NCBI GenBank assembly: GCA_905160935.1
Contig: CAJHZI010000416.1
Location: forward strand, 1,706,501 to 1,770,500
Direction of reading: 5' to 3'
Origin: Enchytraeus crypticus
Lineage: Eukaryota > Annelida > Clitellata > Enchytraeida > Enchytraeidae
DNA: 64,000 nt
Shown here: one piece after another, positions 7,286 to 14,097 of the stretch
Layout of the letters: each line of letters starts with the position of its first letter
How positions within the stretch are numbered: the stretch's first letter is position 1
Position numbers and translations under genes: made by a program
The notes under the pieces: model-generated
What the model saw: only the letters and a program-made list of their open reading frames with translations
Databases searched by the model: none
Told to the model about the DNA's origin: nothing

Positions 7286-7520
7286 ATGCACTCGGCTAGC
7301 GTGGGATACTTAGCTGCCTGCTTGCTGCTCGTGGGCAGCGGCTGCCTTGCGCCCTGCTCATCAGGGACCCCGGTGTCGATGAAGAATTCTCGACTGCTTC
7401 CACGCAGCGCCCTGGAAAAATCAGCGGATGATGAGTCCAGAGAAGAAAATCATATTGACAGAGATGATAACAGATTCAACAAGCAATTAAATCTCGATCA
7501 TCCGACGAAAGATGAAAAAG
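7286..7520 (+). CDS. Prohormone-like gene, exon 1 (signal peptide)
   Basis: The ATG opens a signal peptide with a hydrophobic core (SVGYLAACLLLVGSGCLA). After likely cleavage near residues 22-27 comes a charged spacer rich in D, E, K and R. The donor AAAAG|GTAATG at 7521 interrupts a Gly codon after its first base. The exon is visibly richer in G+C than its flanks. Confidence 0.7.
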
Positions 7521-12432: not shown

Positions 12433-14097
12433 TCAGGCTTATTGTTACTTTGCAAAGATCTAATGCAGTCTGCTTCAGCAATTCTTTTAAGCAGCTAGTA
12501 GACCTCGAGTAGCCGGGCGGCGACTCATCATTTAGTGATAGAATCGTTTTATCGAACCCCGGGTTCTTTACAACCAGGGTAAAAAATAAGCACACAATAA
12601 TATTTTAGTGAATACTTTTAAATTCATAGGTGAATATTTTACAGGAAAATTATCAAAAGTTTTTATTTCATTCTATTCTTTATAATTAAAACGTATTTTT
12701 TCAGGTGAGTACAGACTAAGCTTTGGCGAAGAAGCGGCACTTGAAGTTAATGATGAATTCTACAATTGGTTGAAGGAGATCATTGCCTCGTATGAGACGT
12801 ATCGTCAAAGTCATCAGTCGGCTCAGAAACCGTTGACATTCGTCGAGTGGTATCAGCGTAAAAGGCTGGGTGGGCATTTCTTTCAACTCTTCCCCATCAT
12901 TCCTTTATTTATTGCCATGCAGCTTATCCTATTTATGAATTTTTGTTCATTTCAAAGTAGACCATTGAGAAATAAGTGATAGCAACGTAAACTAAATTAT
13001 CCCGTCCCGTCTATTATCACATTGGTATAGTCTATTAAGCAGAGGTTGAATCATTTTCATGGAATAAATTGCAAAAACTTCTCTGATGATATGGAGTGTG
13101 GAACTGGATGATGTCTACAGTATACTGTATATAAAATTGAGATGGTTTATATTCAAATTACAGTAATTCATAGAATAAAAGCAGTAACCTATATTGTATA
13201 TTAGAATTCAATATCAATGATATTAATTATCAATAATAGTAGAATTAAGCAATGTCTTTAAATTAGGCCTAAATTAAATGTAAGTTAATTTAACTGACAG
13301 AAAATTTTAAAGTTGAGTTTAATGTTAATCTTACAAAAATATTAATTATCATTTAAAATATTAATTATCGTTTAAAAGTGGTTATCGGATACTATGGAAT
13401 TGTTGGATTCACATTTGGATTCGTTTTACTAATTATCCAGCCATATTGCTTAAAATTATACTGTATGTTCAGTGTAATTAATGTTTATTACTTTAAAATA
13501 AAATAGCACTCAATTATAAATACATTAAATTATCTATAAAATCAATGATTGATTTATTAACTCACTGATTGATCTACTGACTTACTGATTGACCTATTCT
13601 CTCCATGATTGATCTAATGATTATTTATCTTTTGACTGAATGATCGATCTATTGACCCACTCATTGATATATTGATTAACTGATTGATTTATTCACTCAA
13701 TGTTCGATCTATTGACTCTTTTGACTCTTTTGACATTTGATCTATTGACTCCATGGTTGAAATATTATCTCTGTGATTGATCTATTGACTCACTGATTGA
13801 TCTACTGACTCACTGATTGATCTACTGACTCACTGATTGATCTACTGACCCACTGATTGATCTACTGACCCACTGATTCATCTACTGACCCACTGATTAA
13901 TCAATTGACTCACTGGTTGATCTATTGACTCACTGATTGATGCATGGTATCCAGAGAGTCGAGGAACTGTAGTAAGAAGAAGTCTGGACTATGACTATGA
14001 CAACACTCTCAGTAGTGTTCTACCTCCGTGGAGTGAGATCTGCAGGTTGCTCGGCAGAAGTGATTGCAGAAGATTCGTACGTCGCAGATCCAACTAA
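7286..14097 (+). CDS. Secreted prohormone-like protein, family unknown (proposed exons 7286-7520, 12705-12869, 13955-14097)
   Basis: I do not recognise this gene. The three-exon model gives about 180 aa. Residues 1-~26 are a clear signal peptide (hydrophobic LAACLLLVG core). An acidic, Lys/Arg-rich spacer follows, then an amphipathic stretch with FYNWLKEIIASYE and FVEWYQ, a basic RKR site, an RR site, and a C-terminal segment containing DYDYD, PPWSEICRLLGRSDCRRFV and a final RRRSN. Two cysteines (about 163 and 171) could close a 9-residue loop. The exon 1 to exon 2 phase (1) matches exactly, with good GT and AG sites. The exon 2 to 3 join is weaker: GTGGGC at 12870 or GTAAAA at 12858 both keep frame; without it, exon 2 runs on to a stop at 12977-12979. 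AATAAA signals at 14358 and 14383 support an end here. No C-terminal Gly for amidation is present. Function as a neuropeptide or peptide hormone is an inference from layout only. Confidence 0.5.
7755..8000 (+). mobile_element. Family-E repeat fragment with (AAT)n tail
   Basis: The segment with GCCTAGGCGCTCA, ATGCCCTTTGG, GTCGCCTTCTACGACA and ACACAACACGGGG repeats at 19860-19995, 32680-32820 and partly 34160-34215. It ends in an AAT-rich tract. Near 7933-7965 the tail of the family-F repeat (CCCCGGGTTCTTTACACC) has also been inserted or joined. Confidence 0.7.
8002..8152 (-). mobile_element. SINE-A, full length, with inverted 5' head
   Basis: On the minus strand: a head GTGGCGAAGTCGGTAAGAC (A-box-like), a B-box GGGTTCAAATCC at about 8075, then GTCACTGACATCGCTTTCGA, GTGAGGAAATTGACGTTAAC and a short tail. 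This is the usual tRNA-derived SINE order. The head is duplicated as an inverted copy (arms 8103-8122 and 8133-8152, loop of 10), the same structure as at 3328-3393. Confidence 0.8.
8440..8625. repeat. Degenerate ~16-18 bp tandem repeat (CTAGGGCTCAATGGCT)
   Basis: About ten imperfect copies of a CTAGGGCTCA-TGGCT unit, some with spacers. It lies in intron 1 of the prohormone-like gene. No coding or regulatory meaning is visible. Confidence 0.7.
9440..9592 (+). repeat. Family-F dispersed repeat
   Basis: This copy matches 12435-12592 closely: CTTTGCAAAGAT, GCTTCAGCAATTCTTTTAA, GACCTCGAGTAGCCGGGCGG, then a GC hairpin around CGGGTTCTTTACACCCGGGG and an A/T-rich end. Two good copies plus a tail at 7933-7965 show it is dispersed. 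Class unknown; a SINE or MITE are both possible. Confidence 0.75.
9614..9952 (+). pseudogene. LINE reverse transcriptase C-terminal relic
   Basis: One frame reads VPDTFSASYLSY, a stop, then AAAGSAAEAAANRKSLKYA, YIFLPIAFETLGPINSAVSD, FINELGRINSAISGDQREKA, FLWQRLSIAIQRFNAVCV. The order KY, IP.A.ETLG, F...LG, ...GD.RE..FL.QR.S.A.QR.N is typical of a C-terminal region found in invertebrate retroelement polyproteins; that attribution is from memory of the pattern. One in-frame stop and 5' truncation mark it as dead. An AT-rich tail follows to about 10060. Confidence 0.65.
10317..11070. mobile_element. Tc1/mariner-like MITE with ~190-bp inverted termini, nested in hAT-like element
   Basis: The left end CAGACTGGGGCAAAAAAATA matches the reverse complement of the right end, CAGACTCGGGCAAAAAATAA, and the match continues inwards for well over 120 bases with few differences. 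TA dinucleotides flank both ends, the target duplication of Tc1/mariner elements. Within the left half a second diverged copy of the arm (about 10505-10700) lies in tandem. No transposase is present, so it is non-autonomous. Confidence 0.8.
11060..11122. repeat. (TA)n microsatellite
   Basis: A TA tract starts at the right TA target site of the mariner-like element; target duplication and slippage may both have contributed. It includes the last bases of the element terminus. Confidence 0.8.
11165..11340 (+). pseudogene. RTE-like reverse transcriptase fragment
   Basis: One frame reads LQRIMDSLKDTVLKYGMKIN followed by IRETKVMRVF. This matches the pattern ...G.KIN..KTKVM.... found just after the catalytic core of many non-LTR reverse transcriptases, and is similar to antisense 17470-17720. 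It is short, has no flanking intact domain and lies within the hAT-like element. Confidence 0.6.
12355..12432. repeat. (AAT)n microsatellite
   Basis: An ATA/AAT trinucleotide tract between the hAT-like element and the second family-F copy. Long Ile/Leu homopolymer frames across it are artefacts. Confidence 0.9.
12435..12592 (+). repeat. Family-F dispersed repeat, second copy
   Basis: Close match to 9440-9592 including GACCTCGAGTAGCCGGGCGG and the CCCCGGGTTCTTTACAACC end. It ends about 110 bases before exon 2 of the prohormone-like gene. Confidence 0.75.
12705..12869 (+). CDS. Prohormone-like gene, exon 2
   Basis: The acceptor TTTTTTCAG at 12696-12704 supplies the two bases that complete the Gly codon begun in exon 1. 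The exon encodes EYRLSFGEEAALEVNDEF, then a helix-like NWLKEIIASYETYRQSH, then TFVEWYQRKRL. The end is uncertain: GTGGGC after 12869 gives a phase-1 donor and keeps the RKR site; GTAAAA after 12857 also works; if neither is used, translation ends at 12979 with a hydrophobic, probably spurious tail. Confidence 0.65.
13540..13948. repeat. ~20-bp minisatellite (TGATTGATCTACTGACTCAC) abutting a splice acceptor
   Basis: About twenty copies; the 3' half is nearly perfect and the 5' half degenerate. The array contains no AG on the plus strand across its regular part and is full of CTGAC-like branch-point words. It ends a few bases before the proposed acceptor at 13954. Confidence 0.85.
13955..14097 (+). 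CDS. Prohormone-like gene, candidate exon 3 (Cys-loop peptide)
   Basis: After GGTATCCAG at 13954 the frame reads SRGTVV, RR, SLDYDYDNTLSSVLPPWSE, then ICRLLGRSDCRRFV, RRR, SN and stop. The base composition is coding-like beside AT-rich flanks, and poly(A) signals follow within 300 bases. A different frame (13991-14302) is longer but shows no recognisable features. Transcript evidence is needed for the join to exon 2. Confidence 0.45.

Follow-up and report, generated by a model that had tools for sequence, protein, structure and literature searches.

A candidate prohormone gene in Enchytraeus crypticus

The window analyzed here is a stretch of 64,000 nucleotides from the annelid Enchytraeus crypticus (GenBank assembly GCA_905160935.1, contig CAJHZI010000416.1, positions 1,706,501 to 1,770,500, forward strand), and positions are counted from its first letter unless another contig is named. 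Between 7286 and 14097 its plus strand carries three open stretches that an earlier sequence-only reading had joined into one precursor. On balance, we consider these probably to be a real three-exon annelid gene for a secreted prohormone, found once in the genome, with the following features.

7286..7520, plus strand: coding part of exon 1, with the initial Met, a signal-peptide-like stretch (about residues 1-22) and a charged spacer
7521..12704, plus strand: intron 1, phase 1, with repeats like short interspersed nuclear elements (SINEs), minisatellite repeats and microsatellite repeats inside
12705..12869, plus strand: exon 2, a propeptide segment without cysteine, ending in RKRL and predicted to form a beta-hairpin, a helix and a second helix
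12870..13954, plus strand: intron 2, phase 1; a tandem array of 20-bp units (13542-13941) lies near the acceptor
13955..14097, plus strand: coding part of exon 3, with TAA as the stop
13981..14079, plus strand: predicted 33-residue peptide, putatively released by processing, bounded by RR and RRR and with a C-x7-C loop inside
14080..14088, plus strand: RRR site, directly after the 33-residue peptide
14358..14392, plus strand: AATAAA polyadenylation-like signals at 14358, 14383, and 14387

The frames, motifs, and junctions of the sequence-only reading (12869 or 12857 to 13955) can all be read in the DNA, and the joined exons give a single open frame in both variants, of 180 residues with the donor at 12869 and of 176 residues with the donor at 12857. 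Coding in exon 1 begins with MHSASVGYLAACLLLVGSGCLAPC... and runs to the donor AAG/GTAATG at 7521 (slash, exon end), the exon 2 acceptor is a T-rich CAG, and the exon 3 acceptor is CCAG. The 20-bp array in intron 2 comprises about 20 copies, and 13 bases separate its end from the exon 3 acceptor; its length may vary and may influence splicing.

In the 180-residue frame we find the signal-like start, the charged spacer, the RKR, RR, and RRR sites, and the C-terminal two-cysteine peptide that had been described, with the basic sites at residues 130 (RKR), 141 (RR), 172 (RR), and 176 (RRR). RKR is present in the 12869 form alone, the 12857 form giving YQQSRGTVVRR. The N-terminal stretch reaches an 11-residue hydropathy maximum of 2.24, a measure of hydropathy alone that leaves the cleavage point unfixed, and there is no second hydrophobic stretch in the precursor. 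Cysteines occur at residues 12, 20, and 24, within or just past the signal-like stretch, and at residues 163 and 171, which enclose the loop residues RLLGRSD. The 33-residue peptide has a net charge of -1, and its last 16 residues one of +2. The product displays three general traits of such precursors: a signal-like N terminus as judged by hydropathy, basic sites around the peptide, and no other protein domain.

In addition, the three exons have a G+C content of 0.51, 0.45, and 0.47, against 0.30 to 0.41 in six measured flanks. The peptide-hormone precursor layout that the sequence-only reading proposed is supported by its open frame, its splice phases, the G+C of its exons, a strict shuffle control, and a codon character like that of a YMRFamide precursor from the same genome.

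Splice sites, chance chains, and coding character

Splice sites were scored with approximate weight matrices and ranked against the 3326 GTs and 3861 AGs of the plus strand. Among the GTs, the donor at 7521 ranks at percentile 98.5 and that at 12870 at percentile 97.9, whereas the alternative donor at 12858 is weak (61st percentile). The acceptor at 12705 reaches the 87th percentile of the AGs. For the chance control, three-exon chains were counted in single-strand dinucleotide shuffles of the window, a chain being counted if it opened with a signal-like stretch and its last exon carried both a basic doublet and two cysteines. Strict precursor chains occurred in 1 of 600 shuffles, under thresholds set post hoc from the model's own scores and with an added filter against a second hydrophobic stretch. 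An earlier run, made without this whole-precursor hydrophobicity filter, gave chains in 2 of 60 shuffles and six chains on the real plus strand, every one terminating in exon 3; four of the six passed the later filter. Under loose thresholds, the real minus strand yielded two chains, with one other terminal exon.

A single control for coding character, a neuropeptide gene, was sought in the same genome with an FMRFamide probe. The probe gave 17 matches, the top one (E 3.7e-4) lying off contig C653 and containing stops; the frame on C653 was picked for its 727-residue open frame and not for its E value (best there, 0.018). This open stretch of about 726 codons (C653, 156501-159500; positions 2-2179 of that piece) encodes a YMRFamide precursor of the FMRFamide type. 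Its YMRFG units number 23; 21 take the form KRYMRFGR, and some lie in duplicated blocks. With a base-position model trained on this gene, the proposed frame ranks first of six in all three exons of the candidate (12.5, 2.9, and 6.1 bits).

These results bear on the possibility that the candidate is not one gene, with open stretches joined by chance or exons drawn from different genes, which we regard as unlikely. The near absence, at the post hoc strict thresholds, of chains in the shuffles, the exon G+C raised over the flanks, and the ranking by the neuropeptide-trained model all argue against such joining. Several observations, however, weigh against a prohormone gene as proposed. The exon 3 acceptor at 13955 is weak (74th percentile), and at loose thresholds chains appear in 59 of 600 shuffles; both points, together with the scores of the conserved-exon codon model given next, speak for chance joining or mixed genes. 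The six chains on the real plus strand leave a choice of first exon, starting at 7286 or 7675, and three candidates for the middle exon. A first codon score, trained on 581 codons from 12 conserved exons of the window, leaves the model unsupported (exon 1, -3.8; exon 2, -4.8; exon 3, +4.7 bits), and by this score another same-strand frame is higher in exons 1 and 3 (6.8 and 9.3 bits). Synonymous usage points the same way, with a score per codon of -0.12, -0.10, and +0.13 for exons 1, 2, and 3; when each training exon is left out in turn, the score is positive in 10 of the 12. Equal-length stop-free segments reach the YMRFamide-trained scores of the three exons in 28 of 250, 140 of 798, and 113 of 1187 cases; by itself, the best-of-six frame result is not strong. 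Lastly, a homologue turned up in none of the collections searched, which did not include one of animal genomes.

The YMRFamide control itself has a synonymous score of -0.162 per codon and a G+C content of 0.46, resembling the candidate exons, which indicates that low codon bias is also a trait of this neuropeptide gene. Since all chains on the real plus strand share exon 3 but differ in their first and middle exons, we place less confidence in exons 1 and 2 than in exon 3.

Homology, copy number, and other possible functions

No family of Pfam or NCBIfam matches the precursor at an E value of 10 or below, and among PDB sequences nothing falls below E 0.9 (best, 0.93 and 1.2). No homologue was recovered from viral and prokaryote contigs, collections without animals, and ten precursor fragments together with two made-up loop variants found no match in the open PMC literature. 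Within the animal's own assembly (524,188,772 bases in 802 contigs), queries of 101, 38, and 55 residues returned the candidate locus and two weak matches. We take both as chance: one (C500:54232-57342; E 0.08, 43%) sits among open frames that look Polinton-like by eye, and the other (E 4.19, 32%) lies inside a 2213-residue frame. These searches accordingly found one copy of the gene. The region at C500:54232-57342 holds an integrase-like and other open frames, which by eye suggest a Polinton/Maverick element.

Exon 2 was modeled with AlphaFold2 from one sequence at a mean predicted local distance difference test (pLDDT) score of 82.5, as a hairpin followed by helices at 16-35 and 45-52, and the model of exon 3 is poor (mean pLDDT, 63.5). 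A fold search with exon 2 gave no convincing match in PDB (best E, 8.2) or among viral models (best E, 1.9). A segment predicted to fold independently would also suit a secreted protein with another role, such as a small structural protein or a protease substrate, in which the basic doublets would not serve in processing; no relative that might show the conserved part turned up in the collections searched. We nevertheless find this improbable, given that the exon 2 model has no fold match and that RR, C-x7-C, and RRR are arranged in this order right at the C terminus.

The chief rival is a host-defense peptide precursor, in which a charged propart precedes a C-terminal disulfide-loop peptide, as in the BRICHOS-linked peptides of annelids or in thanatin. 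The host is an annelid, and the polychaete nicomicin precursors, as described in parts of their report, combine a signal, an acidic proregion, and a 33-residue C-terminal disulfide-loop peptide (PMC6265681). Thanatin, in an excerpt of another source, is a defense peptide with a single disulfide that is released from a proprotein (PMC13001179). The last 16 residues of the 33-residue peptide, with their positive charge, point the same way. The candidate thus shares with the BRICHOS-linked annelid antimicrobial peptides the gross layout and the length of the looped product, but it lacks a BRICHOS domain: neither this nor any other Pfam family matches, even at E 10, and exon 2 is free of cysteine, in contrast to the conserved BRICHOS cysteines of nicomicin in the same excerpted report (PMC6265681). 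Its peptide carries a net charge of -1, whereas nicomicins are described there as cationic (PMC6265681), and the multiple multibasic sites suit a hormone better than a defense peptide. Membership in the BRICHOS-linked group was therefore rejected, and a defense function in general appears unlikely.

Neighboring genes and repeats

Elsewhere on the plus strand of the window, exons at 23807-24037 and 25806-25991 belong to a DOK/IRS-like gene, named by eye, which matches a PH domain weakly and an IRS-type PTB domain at E 2.9e-9. Exons at 35970-39109 (plus strand) look like those of UBE2M, a NEDD8-conjugating enzyme, and a TMEM30/CDC50-type gene occupies 57201-63242 on the plus strand (CDC50, E 2.3e-15, in the open reading frame 62946-63290). 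On the minus strand, a leucine-rich repeat gene lies at 46295-48038 (LRR_4, E 5.6e-10), which we take to resemble DNAAF1/LRRC50. A tRNA-like short repeat, probably a SINE, recurs at 45056-45307, 46974-47156, 51921-52166, and 60973-61146, and in the opposite orientation at 8035-8142.

Contig C802 of the assembly (15,205 bases) is mitochondrial. With genes named by eye under code 5, one strand carries cox1, cox2, cox3, nad6, cob, atp6, nad5, nad4L, nad4, an rRNA-sized gap, a Ser tRNA, nad1, nad3, and nad2, presumably the common annelid mitochondrial order, which agrees with an annelid host.

Predicted processing of the prohormone

If the gene is a prohormone gene, its signal peptide would send the product to the secretory pathway, where a disulfide between Cys 163 and Cys 171 would close the loop. 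Prohormone convertases would be expected to cut after RR (141-142) and at RRR (176-178), and a carboxypeptidase would then remove the basic residues. The C terminus of the 33-residue peptide has no glycine for amidation. The predicted product is thus a non-amidated peptide, SLDYDYDNTLSSVLPPWSEICRLLGRSDCRRFV, with a C-terminal loop. The internal RR past the second cysteine could yield a shorter form. Tyrosine sulfation may occur in the acidic, Tyr-rich start SLDYDYDN; by the general preference of the sulfating enzyme, DYDYD is a plausible context. Other loop peptides suggest, by analogy, that its most likely target would be a G-protein-coupled receptor. Tentatively, and as a possibility that we would not yet call probable, the gene could represent an undescribed annelid, perhaps lophotrochozoan, hormone family with a small folded Cys-free propeptide, a possibly sulfated C-x7-C peptide of 33 residues, and a receptor of its own.

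Comparison with known looped peptides

The sequence-only reading had placed the product in no known neuropeptide family and called its likeness to melanin-concentrating hormone (MCH) and the somatostatin/allatostatin-C group only superficial. Both statements hold, given the empty Pfam and NCBIfam searches and the comparisons with MCH, somatostatin/allatostatin-C, and elevenin below. The 33-residue peptide was aligned with a panel of ten cyclic hormones, with 2000 shuffles of the peptide in which the cysteines were kept fixed as the null. Across the panel, 380 to 1807 of the 2000 shuffles reach the real alignment score, which is no better than expected; the counts are 953 for human MCH, 489 for somatostatin-14, 380 for somatostatin-28, and 1268 for Drosophila allatostatin-C.

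MCH resembles the candidate in being a C-terminal peptide with one Cys pair behind a dibasic site, a position that the candidate peptide also has, in its C-(M)LGR beside the candidate's CRLLGR, and, for vertebrate MCH, in a non-amidated end in Val. The vertebrate MCH loop has 8 residues. The candidate differs in its C-x7-C spacing, and its loop opens with R and has S as the next-to-last residue. Parts of one report give the ambulacrarian MCH loop as two residues longer (PMC4772807), and an excerpt of another places the cysteines of a crinoid MCH peptide at 11 and 22 (PMC9793003). In echinoderm MCH peptides, the loop opens with M or I and its next-to-last residue is basic (PMC4772807, PMC9793003). 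MCH "may be unique to deuterostomes," in the words of a further excerpt (PMC5627052). Loop size, flanks, and shuffle-level alignment led us to reject MCH membership.

Like the candidate, members of the somatostatin/allatostatin-C group are C-terminal peptides with two cysteines, as outlined in passages of PMC8851493. According to the same passages, somatostatin types carry FWK or IWK in the Cys loop and FxP occurs in some allatostatin-C types only (PMC8851493), and the Aplysia allatostatin-C loop has 6 residues in an excerpt of PMC10175484. The candidate loop is of another size and contains neither FWK/IWK nor FxP; with alignment at shuffle level as well, membership in this group was rejected. 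Elsewhere in the genome, the Pfam Somatostatin family has one match (C166:628437-628466; 21.9 bits against a curated cut-off of 20.3, E 0.179, 10 of 18 positions). It shows NYFWKTRSSRC in a 26-residue open frame, reads IRNYFWKTRSSRCHLWTE up to the stop without a partner cysteine upstream, and is probably a chance match, conceivably an exon fragment.

Elevenin shares with the candidate two cysteines, a non-amidated end, and the letters DC(x)RFV, as in Aplysia elevenin RPRIDCTRFVFAPACRGVSA (excerpt of PMC10175484). In that excerpt, all elevenins have 8 residues between the cysteines, a conserved P, R, and G, and R and G after the second cysteine (PMC10175484). In the candidate, by contrast, DC contains the second cysteine and the loop has 7 residues. 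The second half of elevenin (P.C[KR]G, A.CRG, or CRG[VI]) is absent from the six frames of the window, and elevenin was rejected on spacing and for want of a matching second half, also as a peptide completed by a further exon. An Aplysia elevenin query against the animal's own genome, run without a positive control, gave no match, nor did Pfam Neurophysin, for which no control gave a signal either.

A lineage-restricted annelid prohormone is the best reading of the locus. Homology searches poorly detect lineage-restricted loop peptides, and orphan receptors need candidate ligands; if the prohormone is confirmed, its peptide could be tried as a ligand, and its sequence signature could be sought in other annelids. 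We regard it as a good neuropeptide candidate from what is probably a real gene, and annelids have a variety of other lineage-restricted precursors of this kind. In Platynereis, according to parts of PMC3890597, several Cys-containing precursors had no relatives that could be found outside the species. Compared by description and not by sequence, these orphan precursors are like the candidate in being annelid, lineage restricted, and possibly disulfide bonded (PMC3890597), and one of them may be related to the Enchytraeus precursor.

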